The position numbers and the translations under genes are program-made. Below are positions 41,511-62,879 of a stretch of 64,000 bases of DNA, piece by piece (position 1 is the first letter of the stretch; each line of letters starts with the position of its first letter). The DNA is from Cellulomonas sp. APG4 (GTDB lineage Bacteria; Actinomycetota; Actinomycetes; Actinomycetales; Cellulomonadaceae), in contig NZ_JAACYI010000013.1 in NCBI RefSeq assembly GCF_009996735.1, forward strand, positions 1 through 64,000, in the 5' to 3' direction. The notes beneath the pieces were generated by a model. It searched no databases. It was not told the origin of the DNA and saw nothing but the letters and a program-made list of their open reading frames with translations.

Positions 41511-41756
41511 GTGCCCGAGTCCCGGTCCCGCAAGAAGCCCGCCTACACGCCGCCGCCCGAGGCGAAGGCCGAGAAGGGCAACCCGCCGTGGCTGGTGCCC
41601 ACGATGGTCGGGCTCATGCTGCTGGGCCTCGCGTGGGTCGTGGTCACCTACATCACGCAGACCGCGTGGCCCATCCCGAACATCGGGAACTACAACCTGC
41701 TCATCGGCTTCGCGCTCATCATCGCGGGCTTCGGGCTCACCACCCGCTGGCGCTGA
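41511..41756 (+). CDS. crgA: Cell division protein CrgA
   Basis: An 81-residue protein with two membrane helices (WLVPTMVGLMLLGLAWVVVT and YNLLIGFALIIAGFGLTT) linked by ITQTAWPIPNIGN, the CrgA family pattern, after a basic SRSRKKPAYTPPP tail. CrgA is an actinobacterial divisome factor that recruits FtsI and, in Streptomyces, affects septation. The GTG at 41511 follows AGGAG at 41501-41505; upstream in-frame sequence belongs to the intergenic region. Confidence 0.93.
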   Translation: MPESRSRKKPAYTPPPEAKAEKGNPPWLVPTMVGLMLLGLAWVVVTYITQTAWPIPNIGNYNLLIGFALIIAGFGLTTRWR

Positions 41757-41819
41757 CCCCCGGGCCTCCGGCCGCACACCGCACCACGGGCCCCGTCGAC
41801 GCACCAGCGTCGGCGGGGC

Positions 41820-41910
41820 TCGTCCGTCCCCGCGCACCGTCCACCCTCGTCCGTCCCCGCGCGCGGTCCACCCTCGTCCGTCCCCGCGCACCGTCCACCC
41901 TCGTCCGTCC
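41820..41910. repeat. 27-bp tandem repeat, three copies plus a partial
   Basis: Units start at 41820, 41847 and 41874 and begin TCGTCCGTCCCCGCG; the second differs from the others by two bases (GCGCGG for GCACCG). A fourth partial unit runs to 41910. The unit length is a multiple of three, but no gene covers it. Confidence 0.9.
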
Positions 41911-41960
41911 GGCCGCCGGGGCCGGCCATACCCTCCGCCGCGGTCGGTCCCGGCGGTCCT

Positions 41961-41999
41961 TGTGACGGACGGGACTCCCGTGGCCGATGGGACGTCACA
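41961..41999. repeat. Nested inverted repeats
   Basis: Outer arms TGTGACG (41961-41967) and CGTCACA (41993-41999) enclose an inner palindrome ACGGGA-C-TCCCGT (41969-41981). The structure could form a cruciform or a folded RNA. No downstream gene on either strand would use it as an operator. Confidence 0.6.
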
Positions 42000-42174
42000 T
42001 CCGACACTCCGTCCACTCCCGCACCAAGCACCGCGACGACGGACCGCGCAGGGCCGTGGGCCGGCGTCCGGACGTCACGGGTCTGGTGGCCGTTCCCCGA
42101 CCACGGAGGGCTTCGGGTCGCCGCGCCTCGCCCTCGGCGGCGAGGCCTCGTCCGTCCCCAGGGGTGGAGATCTC

Positions 42175-42204
42175 TGTGGATAACTACACGGGTGTAGTTC
42201 CACA
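42175..42204. promoter_or_regulatory. Perfect DnaA box within a long palindrome
   Basis: 42175-42183 is TGTGGATAA, the complement of the classical DnaA box TTATCCACA. It overlaps AACTACAC-GG-GTGTAGTT (42182-42199), a perfect 8-bp dyad, and outer TGTGG (42175-42179) pairs with CCACA (42200-42204), leaving a two-base bulge. Function unknown; a DnaA titration or binding site is one possibility. Confidence 0.6.
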
Positions 42205-42408
42205 GGTGTGAGCAACCCTGGGGACGACGAGCGCGTACCTCCGGCCACCCTCCTCCACGCCGACGCAGGCCCACCGCACGGGGCCTGCGGGGAGGGTCAC
42301 CGAGACGTGTGGAAGGCTCCCGTCGCCGTGCGAGTGAGATCCTCCACGGCCCGGGGCGGGCAGCATGCCCCGCACCCTCGACGTCCGCCGCGCAGACTCA
42401 GCGGGGGA

Positions 42409-43245
42409 TCAGAGGGCGGCGTACGCCGTCAGCGCGACGACGACGAGCAGCACCGCCATGACGACGGGGGCGGCCCAGCCCACGAGCGCCCGGCGGTCGC
42501 GGGGCACGTACGCGAACGCCGCGCCGAGGGCGGCGCCCACCACGAGCCCGCCCAGGTGCGCCTGCCACGCGATGCCGGGCACCACGAACCCGATCACCGC
42601 GTTGATCGCGAGGAGCACCAGGATCTGCCGTGCGTCGGCGCCCACGCGGCGCAGCACCACGAGGACGGCGCCGAAGAGCCCGAACACGGCTCCTGACGCA
42701 CCGACCACCCACTGCAGGTATTCACCGAGCAGCAGGAAGCCGACGGACCCGCCGACCGCCGAGAGCACGAACAGGGCCACGAACCTCGCCCGTCCCAGCT
42801 GCTGCTCGAGGAACGGCCCCACGAGCCACAGCGCGTACAGGTTGAAGGCGATGTGCAGCACCATCCCGCGGCTGTGCAGGAAGGCCGCGGTGAGGAACCG
42901 CCACGGCTCGTACTCGCCCCAGGCGGGGCTGAAGATCCAGCGTGACTCCCACGCCCAGCCGAGCGCGAGCTGCAGCGCGAAGCTCACGAGGCACAGCCCC
43001 AGGATGGTCAGCGTGACCACCGGCCGACCGCCTCGCACGGGAGCGCCGAACCGCGTGCGCGTCTGCGGTGCCGTGCGCGCGGCCTCGCGCACGCAGTCCA
43101 CGCAGTGGATGCCGACGGCGGCCTGACGCTGGCACTCGGGGCACGCCGGCCGCCCGCAGCGCTGGCAGCGCACGTAGGACACCCTGTCGGGGTGTCGCGG
43201 GCAGACCGGCGTCTCGACCTGGGCCGACGGGTCGTCGGTACTCAT
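42409..43245 (-). CDS. Rhomboid-family intramembrane serine protease
   Basis: A 278-residue protein. The N-terminus is a B-box-like zinc finger (CPRHPDRVSYVRCQRCGRPA, CPECQ and CVDC pairs). A membrane domain of about six helices follows, with WRFLTAAFLHSRGMVLHIAFN, the catalytic Ser in VVGASGAVFGLFG and the catalytic His in WQAHLGGLVVG. Rhomboids cleave transmembrane substrates within the bilayer; the substrate is unknown. The ATG is 34 bases after the cyclophilin... on the reverse order the cyclophilin gene lies upstream, so the two may share a transcript? Its start (43245) lies 34 bases downstream of the cyclophilin stop (43280), consistent with co-transcription. Confidence 0.92.
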   Translation of the reverse strand: MSTDDPSAQVETPVCPRHPDRVSYVRCQRCGRPACPECQRQAAVGIHCVDCVREAARTAPQTRTRFGAPVRGGRPVVTLTILGLCLVSFALQLALGWAWESRWIFSPAWGEYEPWRFLTAAFLHSRGMVLHIAFNLYALWLVGPFLEQQLGRARFVALFVLSAVGGSVGFLLLGEYLQWVVGASGAVFGLFGAVLVVLRRVGADARQILVLLAINAVIGFVVPGIAWQAHLGGLVVGAALGAAFAYVPRDRRALVGWAAPVVMAVLLVVVALTAYAAL

Positions 43246-59356: not shown

Positions 59357-60487
59357 TCAGCTGGCGAATCGGATCGGCACCAGGAGGTACCGATAGCTCC
59401 TGTCGTCGTCCCCCTCGAGGCTCTCCTGACCGGTGAACTCGACCGGCTTGTTCGGGTGGGTGAACGACATCCGGACGAAGTCCGTGCTCAGGGCACCGAG
59501 CCCGTCGAGCAGGAACTGCGGGTTGAAGGCGACCGTGATGTCCTCACCCGTGAGTGCGGACTCGAGCGCCTCCGACGCCTGGGCATCGTCTCCCTGGCCG
59601 GCGTCGAGCACAACCTGGCCCTCGGAGAACGCGAGCCGGATCGGGGTGTTGCGCTCGGCGACGAGCGAGACACGTCGGGCCGCCTCGGTGAGCTGCTGGG
59701 TCGACACGACCGCGTGGATCGGCGTCTCGTCCGGGAACAGGCGGCGCACGGCCGGGTAGTCGCCGTCGACCAGGAGGGAGGTCGTGTGACGTCCACCGGC
59801 CTCGAAGCCGATGAGGTCGACACCCGCACCGGTCGCGAGCGCGACGGTCACCTGGTCCGAGCCACCCAGGGACTTGGCGGCGTCGGACAACGTGCGCGCA
59901 CGCACGAGCGCGACCTGCGAGATGCCGGGGCTGGCCGGCGTCCACGTGAGCTCACGCAGCGCGAGGCGGTAACGGTCGGTCGCGAGCATGGTGATCGTGT
60001 CGTCGTCGATCTCCATGCGCACGCCCGTGAGGAGGGGGAGCGTGTCGTCACGGCTCGCGGCGACGGTCACCTGGGCGACCGCCTGGGTGAGGGCATCGCC
60101 TGCGATGCTCCCCACGACGTCGGGCATGGCCGGGAGGGCGGGGTAGTCCTCGACCGGCATCGTGAGCAGGGTGAACCGGCTCGCACCGCAGGTCACGGTC
60201 ACCTTGGAGCCGTCGAGCACCACGTCCACGGGCTTGGGGGGCAGCGCGCGCGAGATCTCCGCGAGGAGCCGGCCGGAGACGAGCACCACTCCCGGCTCGC
60301 TCACGTCTGCCGCGATCTCCGAACGTGCCGAGACCTCGTAGTCGAAGCTCGAGAGCTGGACGACGCCCGAGGAGTCGGCCTCGAGGCGCACACCGGCGAG
60401 CACGGGGACCGGGGGGCGGGTGGGCAGCGACCGAGCGGTCCAGGTGACCGCCTCGGCAAGGACGTCCCGGTCGACCCTGAACCTCAT
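59357..60487 (-). CDS. dnaN: DNA polymerase III beta sliding clamp
   Basis: A 376-residue clamp made of three repeated domains, with MRFRVDRDVLAEAVTWTARS, PVPVLAGVRLEADSSGVVQL, MLATDRYRLALREL and, at the end, SYRYLLVPIRFAS. The ATG at 60487 follows GAGGG at about 60496-60500. It is the first gene left of oriC and is transcribed away from it. Confidence 0.98.
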   Translation of the reverse strand: MRFRVDRDVLAEAVTWTARSLPTRPPVPVLAGVRLEADSSGVVQLSSFDYEVSARSEIAADVSEPGVVLVSGRLLAEISRALPPKPVDVVLDGSKVTVTCGASRFTLLTMPVEDYPALPAMPDVVGSIAGDALTQAVAQVTVAASRDDTLPLLTGVRMEIDDDTITMLATDRYRLALRELTWTPASPGISQVALVRARTLSDAAKSLGGSDQVTVALATGAGVDLIGFEAGGRHTTSLLVDGDYPAVRRLFPDETPIHAVVSTQQLTEAARRVSLVAERNTPIRLAFSEGQVVLDAGQGDDAQASEALESALTGEDITVAFNPQFLLDGLGALSTDFVRMSFTHPNKPVEFTGQESLEGDDDRSYRYLLVPIRFAS

Positions 60488-60964
60488 CGCTGTTTCCCTC
60501 CGCACGCAGGCAGCGCCGCGTGCCCGACGGCGCGCGGCTGATCCGTGTGAACAGTACGCGAGACGACCGTCACGGGGTACGCACGCGGACCACGTCGTCC
60601 GGGGCGGCTCTGCGTGATCACCCGGACGCTCGTCGGGCGCACCCGTAGGACGACTGTTCACACCTGTGGACATCCCTGTGGACGGCCGTGGACAGAGGCA
60701 CCCGTCCGTGTGGACACGTGTGGTCCCGTCCGTGGACGGCAGGTGAACAACATCCCGTCGTCCACGACGACCCCGCGCCGTCAACTACTCCGTCCTCAGC
60801 CGGTCCACACCCAGATCCGCTCGCTGACCTGCACGTCGACCGTGTGTCCACACTCTCCACACGACCGATGACGATGACGAGAACTTCCATCGAGGGGAGA
60901 TCGCACGCCTTCATCCCTGGCGGGCGTGGAGGCGGGGGTCGACCGGGAGCGACCCGGTAGTGCC
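60488..60964. other. Chromosomal replication origin (oriC)
   Basis: The 477-base dnaN-dnaA gap holds a cluster of degenerate DnaA boxes with the core TCCACA. In TGTGGA orientation: 60665, 60677, 60709 (TGTGGACAT, TGTGGACGG, TGTGGACAC), and weaker CGTGGAC at 60687 and 60731. In TCCACA orientation: 60654 (CTGTTCACA), 60801 (CGGTCCACA), 60844 (GTGTCCACA), 60853 (CTCTCCACA). The two orientations face each other. No clear AT-rich unwinding element is visible by eye. No gene lies here. Confidence 0.9.
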
Positions 60965-62422
60965 TCAGCCCCGGTGCTGCTGCTTGATGCGGTTCGTGAG
61001 CTCGGTGACCTGGTTGTAGATCGACCGGCGCTCCGCCATCAGCTCACGGATCTTGCGGTTGGCGTGCATCACCGTGGTGTGGTCGCGGCCGCCGAACTGC
61101 TGACCGATCTTGGGCAGGCTCATGTCCGTCAGCTCGCGGCAGAGGTACATCGCGATCTGCCGTGCGGTCACGAGGACGCGCGAGCGCGAGCTGCCGCACA
61201 GGTCGTCGATCGTGAGCCCGAAGTAGCTTGCGGTCTGCCCGATGATCGCCGCGGCCGTGATCTCGGCGGTGTCGTCGTCGGTGATCAGGTCCTTGAGGAC
61301 GATCTCGGCGAGTGCAAGGTCGACCTGCTGCCGGTTGAGGTTCGCGAACGCGGTGACGCGGATCAGTGCGCCCTCGAGCTCGCGGATGTTGGTGGAGATC
61401 TTCGAGGCGATGTACTCGAGCACGTCGTGCGGCGCCTGGAGGTTCTCGCTGCCGGCCTTCTTCCGCAGGATCGCGATGCGCGTCTCGAGGTCCGGCGGCT
61501 GGACGTCGGTGATGAGCCCCCACTCGAACCGCGACCTCATGCGGTCCTCGAACCCGTTGAGCTGCTTGGGCGGCAGGTCGGAGGTGATGACGACCTGCTT
61601 GTTCGCGTTGTGGAGCGTGTTGAACGTGTGGAAGAACTCCTCCATCGTCTGTTCCTTGCCCTGAAGGAACTGGATGTCGTCGATGAGGAGGACGTCCACC
61701 TCGCGGTAGCGCCTCTGGAACGCACCGGCGCGGCCCTCGCCGATGGAGTTGATGAAGTCGTTGGTGAACTCTTCCGAGTTCACGTACCGCACCCTGATCC
61801 CTGAGTAGAGCGACTGCGCGTAGTGCCCGATGGCGTGCAGGAGGTGGGTCTTGCCCAGCCCGGAGTCGCCGTAGATGAACAGCGGGTTGTACGCCTTGGC
61901 GGGCGCCTCGGCGACAGCGACGGCTGCGGCGTGGGCGAACCGGTTCGAGGACCCGATGACGAAGGTCTCGAAGAGGTACTTGGGATTGAGCCGCGCCGGC
62001 TCGGCGGGCGGCCGGCTCGAGGTGGGCCGCGCGGGGGCGCGGTCCTCGGGACGGGGTCCGGTGTCCTCGAGGTCGCCTTCGGCTGCGGAGTCCGGGCGGC
62101 GGACGGTGCCGAGCCGGTACCCGTCGTCTGCGGTGCGCGCGGGCTCGGCGTCGTCGAGCGCCGGGTCGACGGTCACGGCGAACCGGGCGTCCCTCTCGAG
62201 CACGGCGGTCAGGGCCCGTGTGATCTCCGTGCGGACGCGGGACTCGAGGTAGTCCTTCGTGAAGTCGTTGCCCACGGCGAGCAGCACGGTCCCGTCGAGC
62301 AACCCCATGGGTTCGGCCAGGCGGATGAACGCCAGCTGCTGCGCGCTCGTCGCCGGGTCGCGCGAGATGAGGTCGATGGCGGTGGCCCACACCTCGGCGA
62401 TGGGGTCGTCCTGTGCTGGCAC
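60965..62422 (-). CDS. dnaA: Chromosomal replication initiator DnaA
   Basis: A 485-residue AAA+ initiator. Domain I (about 1-90, [20 protein letters not shown]), an acidic/Pro linker, AAA+ domain with [23 protein letters not shown] (Walker A), [18 protein letters not shown] (Walker B) and the domain IV helix-turn-helix ending with [15 protein letters not shown], the DnaA-box-binding signature. GTG at 62422 has AGGAG seven bases upstream. It lies right of oriC and is transcribed toward it; boxes upstream of the gene suggest autoregulation. Confidence 0.98.
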
Positions 62423-62460
62423 TGAGGGGCTCCTGGTCTGCGCTGCGCGAGGCGTCGTCC

Positions 62461-62487
62461 GCGAGAAGTCTCGCACGGTGAACCGTG
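62461..62487. repeat. Two adjacent 6-2-6 palindromes in the dnaA leader
   Basis: GCGAGA-AG-TCTCGC (62461-62474) and CACGGT-GA-ACCGTG (62474-62487) touch end to end, about 40-65 bases upstream of the dnaA start codon. The second overlaps a near-consensus DnaA box (TGATCCACA at 62486). Two-base loops suggest DNA operators rather than RNA hairpins. Confidence 0.55.
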
Positions 62488-62565
62488 ATCCACACAGTTG
62501 TCCACAGACTGTGCGTGCAGGTCCGCCGCACGGGACGGGGACGTGAGGGACCCGGTCTGTCCACA
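62486..62565. promoter_or_regulatory. DnaA boxes upstream of dnaA
   Basis: TTGTCCACA at 62498-62506 matches the actinobacterial DnaA-box consensus exactly; TGATCCACA (62486-62494) and CTGTCCACA (62557-62565) differ by one base from consensus forms. They lie in the 457-base gap between dnaA and rpmH, where DnaA autoregulates in other bacteria. The rest of this gap holds the rpmH promoter and no gene. Confidence 0.75.
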
Positions 62566-62685
62566 GAGTTGTGCAGAGCTGTGGGTGCAGCCGATCATCC
62601 TGCCTCGGTGTGTCGGCGGCACGATTCGGCCGGAAGGGTGGATCCTGGAGAGTTGTGGTCGCCCCGCGCGAGCGAGACGTGTGGT

Positions 62686-62714
62686 TTGACCCCCGCGTGC
62701 CCTCCGCGTACCGT
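62686..62714 (+). promoter_or_regulatory. rpmH promoter (housekeeping sigma)
   Basis: TTGACC (62686-62691), 17-base spacer, TACCGT (62709-62714). A similar element precedes rpmH in other actinobacteria. It leaves a leader of about 160 bases before rpmH. Confidence 0.7.
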
Positions 62715-62879
62715 TGCACAGCCGTTCGTGACGGCTCTTGTCAGCGTGCCCGTGCATCGCCCGCCGGCCTGGTCCCCGACCGAGGCCAGTGCTGGGCGGA
62801 GGTGTGGGTAGGAGCCGCCCGACCGTACCGAGTGTCCGCCGACCAGGCGGTGACCTGAACCGAACCAGTGGAGTCCGAC

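Follow-up and report, generated by a model that had tools for sequence, protein, structure and literature searches.

A conserved DnaA-box and palindrome element beside crgA in Cellulomonas sp. APG4: probable counterpart of a mycobacterial DnaA site

We analyzed a 64,000-nucleotide stretch of the genome of Cellulomonas sp. APG4 (contig NZ_JAACYI010000013.1; the whole 64-kb stretch is called the window below), with a focus on the 652-bp convergent gap between the stop codons of crgA and a rhomboid-family gene. This gap contains a 74-bp composite of DnaA boxes and a palindrome at 42153-42226, about 18.5 kb from the presumed replication origin, oriC. The composite is a genuine, deeply conserved DNA element. 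We consider it probable that it acts at the DNA level, as a binding locus for DnaA outside the origin, and that it is the counterpart of a site reported in mycobacteria. The mycobacterial site beside crgA was already known, and the aspect that appears to be new is the breadth of its probable occurrence outside mycobacteria. An earlier reading of the DNA without database searches (the sequence-only reading) had noticed a structured noncoding element at 41820-42204, near oriC, in a gap where both flanking genes end. The proximity to oriC was confirmed, as were the gene ends (crgA stop at 41756 on the plus strand, rhomboid stop at 42409 on the minus strand), and the tandem repeat, the inverted repeats and the DnaA-box palindrome described there turned out to be real according to Tandem Repeats Finder, a repeat search and shuffles. 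The interval was partly appropriate: it covers the box and the palindrome, but it cuts the right arm, which extends to 42226, and it adds a repeat that is not conserved. Three interpretations had been offered, a small RNA, a protein-binding chromosome site and a relic of insertion. Of these, the protein-binding site is supported for 42153-42226, which is a conserved core with a DnaA box, but the small RNA is not.

In the window the element consists of one perfect DnaA box and degenerate ones, grouped around a perfect palindrome that has two bases in common with the strong box (Table 1). An inverted repeat pairs 42153-42180 with 42199-42226, and further inverted repeats are present in the gap. 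Perfect TTRTCCACA boxes occurred twice in the 64 kb, compared with a mean of 0.13 in shuffled sequences, of which 1 of 100 reached two. The exact palindrome was found a single time in the 3.74-Mb genome, and a relaxed form, with one mismatch to the wider consensus, was found twice. The second relaxed copy (C17:34273-34290; L281, ~1474) is located at the beginning of a long open reading frame or immediately upstream of it.

Conservation within the genus was analyzed with a DNA search, in which the gap and its edges were used as the query against 19 genus genomes. In the relatives, matches at the crgA locus were confined to the end of crgA and the window segment 42155-42226; the other parts of the gap yielded just scattered short matches elsewhere in the genus genomes. 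The segment was 82-97% identical in 15 relatives, in some of them over its left two thirds only. It was located 32 to 237 bp past the crgA match in these genomes, and in the window it begins 399 bp after the crgA stop. Its orientation relative to crgA was the same in 14 of the 15 relatives and reversed in one (G151), in which the inverted element adjoins a second partial copy (L035). A sequence-only model, generated from an alignment of 17 sequences, added two genomes (G079 and G143), so that 18 of 19 genus genomes, including the window's own, contain the element. The TGTGGA of the box was unchanged in all 17 genus sequences. The sequence-only reading had named a lack of conservation among the observations that would speak against it, and this did not hold, because the core is conserved.

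The genus model was also applied to 297 genomes of the order and matched 241 of them at E <= 0.01, or 230 of 281 when only genomes with at least 90% completeness and at most 5% contamination were considered. In all of the 30 best order loci, crgA and/or the rhomboid gene adjoined the match. Twenty weaker matches, picked from the list by the analyst, were inspected as well: 12 were near crgA and/or the rhomboid gene, six were at the dnaA side of rpmH, and two were near neither. For the rpmH-adjoining matches, dnaA was inside the examined stretch in four of six cases. One of the 12 (L245) lies about 0.7 kb from the rhomboid gene and has a different arrangement. For a closer comparison, 38 order loci were chosen by hand and aligned, with exclusion of loci with a missing or different right arm (e.g. 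L034-L037, L039) and of several weaker ones. In this set the spacing of the parts was nearly fixed, i.e. TGTGG-A.AACTACA-...-TGTARTT-CCACA..TGTGA..AA..CTGTGG, and the TGTGG of the box was present in every sequence. In the window's order an arm is present on either side, and the strong box is in the part nearer crgA. In some genera two modules were found in tandem (L067, L069, L078, L079, L275), which suggests that the whole unit was duplicated. The distances to the neighboring genes can be large, with more than 1 kb between crgA and the element in L057 and L058, and about 0.5 kb between the element and the rhomboid gene in L027; the element is still in the gap in these cases.

Conservation across the class was quantified with a sample that was anchored on CrgA (PF06781) and was, therefore, independent of the element. 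A crgA gene was present in 112 of 118 class genomes. The downstream side was read in 90 of these (22 were left out), and at least 200 bp were available in 89. Within 200 bp past the crgA stop, 85 of the 89 genomes had at least one TCCACA/TGTGGA motif and 70 had at least two, with a mean of 2.18. In the next three 200-bp intervals the means were 0.18, 0.17 and 0.13, compared with 0.07 in shuffled sequences, and two or more motifs were found in only 2 of 88, 3 of 87 and 2 of 87 genomes. In the first 200 bp after the crgA stop, the palindrome reached a score of at least 12 of 16 in 61 of 89 genomes, compared with 2 of 88, 1 of 87 and 0 of 87 genomes in the further intervals, and in at most two genomes in any of 50 shuffles. 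In the 62 scoring class genomes outside the order, its median distance from the crgA stop was 49.5 bp.

The boxes of the element are of the TTnTCCACA type. Class loci outside the order usually consist of the palindrome, TTnTCCACA, about 4 bp, TTGTCCACA and TGTGGAnAAC in succession, and the boxes were on the side facing away from crgA in 41 of 48 loci, with five ties and two opposite cases; these side counts rely on an earlier version of stop finding that trimmed some loci. The spacing between the palindrome and the first box differs by a base or two among lineages. The Streptomyces-sized genomes in the sample (7-10 Mb, f21) carry boxes beside crgA. In six of their loci (L151, L159, L160, L142, L145, L146), TGTGGATAAC precedes GTTGACGCCGGTGTGAC or a similar sequence next to crgA, and this pair may represent a palindrome that has diverged, located on the opposite side of the box.

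When the genus-trained model was run on a sample of 296 genomes of the phylum, 36 of them matched at E <= 0.001, eight of these inside the class (including the window's own) and 28 outside. Of the 28 out-of-class matches, 13 were within about 150 bp of a CrgA-like frame, 12 of them on its 3' side and one (L087) on its 5' side. One further match was at dnaA, and 14 had no neighborhood assignment. A spread of the element past the class is likely, but it is far less firmly shown than the spread within the class.

Two families revealed an additional location. Five family f6 genomes (G156, G344, G174, G231, G322; loci L101 and L254-L257) carry AACCACAACGGTGTAATTATCCACA or a similar sequence next to rpmH on its dnaA side; the record of G231 stops short of dnaA. 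In five f6 genomes (G344, G231, G322, G174, G296), no TCCACA was found within 500 bp downstream of crgA. Three genomes of family f7 (G258, G365, G323) have boxes and a palindrome beside crgA, and two of them (G258 and G365) contain an additional composite adjoining rpmH (L248, L249); four smaller f7 genomes had no palindrome beside crgA. The f6 pattern looks like a relocation of the element. Because f6 holds the composite at rpmH/dnaA and, in the genomes read, lacks boxes at crgA, the element does not depend on crgA as its neighbor, and it seems to track DnaA and the origin region.

The gene adjacent to the known mycobacterial site is Rv0011c, which we take to be crgA. For Mycobacterium tuberculosis, Hicks et al. 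2020 (PMC7738170) describe a DnaA site between Rv0010c and Rv0011c that was identified by in vitro DNA affinity purification sequencing (IDAP-seq), with DnaA binding also seen in electrophoretic mobility shift assays (EMSA) and in chromatin immunoprecipitation sequencing (ChIP-seq) of M. smegmatis. According to the same paper (PMC7738170), a small palindrome, interpreted as two DnaA-box-like sequences, precedes the Rv0010c start by 65 bp, all recurrently mutated places except one fall inside this palindrome, and site mutants form longer cells, like dnaA mutants. It also states that the site has no obvious counterpart in other species (PMC7738170).

A pattern taken from the class genomes was scanned over named genomes and led to 17 Mycobacterium contigs, among them contigs of M. 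paraense, M. palustre, M. alsense and M. interjectum. In all 17, the palindrome is located 70-72 bp past the CrgA C terminus and 66 bp ahead of the next presumed start, which was assigned by an MQQ-type pattern and not by annotation. The similarity of their letters follows from this selection by pattern, whereas the agreement in position does not. Three likenesses connect the two systems. In both, the site is at the crgA 3' end and close to oriC; in both, an ACAC-nn-GTGT palindrome is joined to DnaA-box-like sequences, the letters having been compared in the other Mycobacterium species; and the 66 bp in these species compare with the 65 bp reported for M. tuberculosis. The systems differ in that crgA and a rhomboid gene converge on the Cellulomonas gap, whereas the far-side gene in Mycobacterium is a presumed frame on the same strand, so that no convergent gap exists. 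In addition, the Cellulomonas element has two arms, with the strong box in the part nearer crgA, and is about 400 bp away from this gene. By form and position, it appears to correspond to the DnaA site that mycobacteria carry between Rv0010c and Rv0011c. The literature searched, which excluded most subscription journals, contained no description of a crgA-side site outside mycobacteria and none of DnaA boxes together with crgA.

The palindrome could also be the operator of a separate dimeric regulator that competes or cooperates with DnaA, in which case the locus would integrate a second signal. We regard this as possible, but rather unlikely. It would fit the retention of the palindrome as a unit across the class, the two-base overlap with the strong box in the window, and the half-site AATTACAC, which is unlike TTRTCCACA. 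It would also fit results for M. tuberculosis, where a site of the ATCAC(N)4-7GTGAT type at Rv0010c was shown in vitro to be a target of HigA2; the authors equate this site with the DnaA site (PMC11205783). However, the gene for such a partner is hypothetical, the distance from the palindrome to the first box shifts slightly, by one or two bases, among lineages, and Hicks et al. see the palindrome as DnaA-box-like itself (PMC7738170).

It is improbable that the element serves as an operator or promoter of crgA or of the gene beyond it. The short distance to the crgA 3' end outside the order and the location upstream of a presumed start in Mycobacterium would agree with such a role, as would the up-regulation of Rv0010c in an M. 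tuberculosis higA2 mutant (PMC11205783). However, the element lies past the crgA stop, and both window genes end at the gap. The far-side gene varies between a convergent rhomboid gene in the order and a same-strand frame in Mycobacterium, the f6 element is at rpmH/dnaA instead, and the expression of Rv0010c and Rv0011c was unaltered in dnaA mutants according to Hicks et al. (PMC7738170).

The sequence-only reading had considered a small RNA, and a structured small RNA or a terminator between the convergent genes might indeed be suspected from the folding and the convergent setting. The predicted hairpin is very stable (-56 kcal/mol), and the fold of 42145-42235 was far better than that of 200 shuffled sequences, with z values of -7.05 as RNA and -7.62 as DNA. 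However, the small RNA was rejected when the 38 order sequences were analyzed for covariation: 89.2% of the cells were paired, compared with 88.6% with shuffled partners, three double-change pairs were observed compared with a mean of 3.9, and one central pair was disrupted in 15 of the 38 sequences. RNAalifold predicted five pairs for the genus alignment, none with a compensatory change. The Rfam search at the gathering threshold revealed nothing in the gap (its three window matches are tRNAs elsewhere), a laxer Rfam search gave matches far below threshold only (mir-609, E 0.05; sR23, E 0.75), and a simple scan of the gap detected no promoter- or terminator-like site. Furthermore, the Mycobacterium element precedes a presumed start on the crgA strand and is not in a convergent gap. 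Taken together, an RNA or terminator is highly improbable.

For the preferred explanation, a DnaA-binding locus outside the origin, the following mechanism is conceivable. DnaA would load cooperatively onto the strong box and the nearby weaker boxes, and the palindrome would accommodate a partner protein or contain two weak DnaA boxes placed head to head. The locus would alter the amount or the nucleotide state of the DnaA that is free to act at oriC, and initiation would thereby be tied to the division cycle. Because the element is about 18.5 kb from oriC, it should be duplicated soon after initiation, and because it is copied so early it could titrate DnaA, as DnaA-box clusters do, inactivate it, like datA, or reactivate it, like the DARS loci. 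The mycobacterial phenotype shows a shared DnaA pathway, without choosing among these three modes.

Escherichia coli and Bacillus subtilis are the species in which extra-origin control of DnaA is best understood. The datA and DARS loci promote hydrolysis or exchange of the DnaA-bound nucleotide, and they carry an IHF site within the cluster, in the case of DARS2 also Fis. Like datA, DARS1 and DARS2 of E. coli, the Cellulomonas element is non-coding, lies outside oriC and would set DnaA activity, but it differs from them in sequence, place and phylum. DnaA-box clusters of Streptomyces coelicolor were reportedly described by Smulczyk-Krawczyszyn and colleagues in 2006, and one of them, named H69, could correspond to the crgA-side site. 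The clusters of S. coelicolor and B. subtilis (Okumura et al. 2012) represent a further system for comparison.

Several points weigh against a DnaA locus of this kind. DnaA binding and the effect on cell length are reported in mycobacteria only, and for Cellulomonas sp. APG4 we infer both the binding by its own DnaA and the mode of action from this analogy and from the motifs. The element in the window contains only one perfect box and its right-arm boxes are degenerate, whereas M. tuberculosis DnaA has been reported to be unable to bind a single box (PMC4285127). The palindrome may belong to another protein, because its half-site departs from the DnaA-box consensus, and in M. tuberculosis HigA2 was found to bind at this place in vitro. 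In the Streptomyces-sized genomes the boxes are kept, and the palindrome, judged by eye, has diverged. Five class genomes, including the window's own, had neither a box pair nor a palindrome within 400 bp of crgA; because the window's element starts about 400 bp out, four of these are absences at that distance (G788, G624, G752, G156). At the thresholds given above, no match to the genus model was obtained in 56 of 297 order genomes and in 260 of 296 phylum genomes, and within the genus one genome (G130) had no match, its assembly being fragmented into about 550 contigs. Lastly, the 241 order matches are not all crgA-side elements, because weaker matches also fall at rpmH/dnaA or elsewhere.

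A more far-reaching proposal, which we put forward tentatively and with considerable doubt, is that the Actinomycetota possess an ancestral origin-proximal DnaA module. It would consist of boxes plus AATTACACnnGTGTAATT for a putative dimeric partner, would do a job similar to that of datA and DARS, and would be located mostly beside crgA and otherwise beside dnaA. If this were true, the locus that is recurrently mutated in clinical strains of tuberculosis would be a general cell-cycle switch and not a mycobacterial peculiarity. If the element is ancient and shared by Mycobacterium, Streptomyces-sized genomes and other actinomycetes, its role can be tested in fast-growing relatives, the consensus shows which bases are important, and the clinical tuberculosis mutations would be explained via cell-cycle control.

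The features of the element and its surroundings are compiled in Table 1. According to the longest open reading frames, dnaA comprises 60965-62719 and dnaN 59357-60784. Boxes of the forms TGATCCACA, TTGTCCACA and CTGTCCACA are present at or upstream of the dnaA start, and the gap between dnaA and dnaN contains near-matches only. The boxes at the dnaA start (62486-62565) occupy the kind of place where another family carries the composite.

Table 1. Positions of the conserved element, its parts and the surrounding features in the window
Feature	Position	Strand	Basis or remark
Whole conserved element, two-armed DnaA-box/palindrome composite, 74 bp	42153-42226		Alignment of relatives; genus-model match 42152-42226
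Perfect DnaA box TTATCCACA	42175-42183	-	Pattern scan
Perfect 18-bp palindrome AACTACACGGGTGTAGTT	42182-42199		Class-wide form about AATTACACnnGTGTAATT
Left (crgA-side) arm CGTCCCCAGGGGTGGAGATCTC	42153-42174		Relatives have GTGGACA or GTGCACAA box-like sequence here
Right arm CCACAGGTGTGAGCAACCCTGGGGACG	42200-42226		Ends in CTGTGGA in many relatives
Degenerate DnaA box TTGCTCACA within right arm	42207-42215	-	Reading of the sequence
Outer arms CGTCCCCAGGG / CCCTGGGGACG	42153-42163 / 42216-42226		Reading of the sequence
crgA	41511-41756	+	PF06781 match at 41514-41753; GTG start at 41511 assigned by reading
27-bp tandem repeat, 3.4 copies, 93% matches	41819-41910	+	Tandem Repeats Finder; outside the conserved element
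Rhomboid-family protease gene	42409-43245	-	Pfam Rhomboid; stop at 42409; convergent neighbor in the window's order
Presumed oriC, dnaA-dnaN gap with TGTGGAC-type boxes	60490-60965		Limits approximate
DnaA boxes at/upstream of the dnaA start	62486-62565	+	TTGTCCACA at 62498-62506; CTGTCCACA at 62557-62565

The tandem repeat between crgA and the element was analyzed separately. Its 27-bp unit was not found in 17 relatives, in which the best matches comprised 16-19 of 27 bases, compared with 16-20 in shuffled sequence. Because of this result, we regard the repeat and the DnaA element as probably separate features. The former is a local oddity that, along with other extra sequence, separates crgA from the element. 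It could be argued that function resides in the repeat, with the palindrome as a by-product, given the close agreement between the units and the resemblance of the unit's start, CTCGTCCGTCCCC, to the left edge of the element. However, we attach almost no weight to this explanation, as the unit was not found in the 17 relatives and the element is present in nearly all of the genus genomes. The letters CTCGTCCGTCCCC of the unit recur at 42147-42159 on the left edge of the element, the repeat search gave 94% identity over 16 bases, and the tandem repeat may have been derived from this edge.
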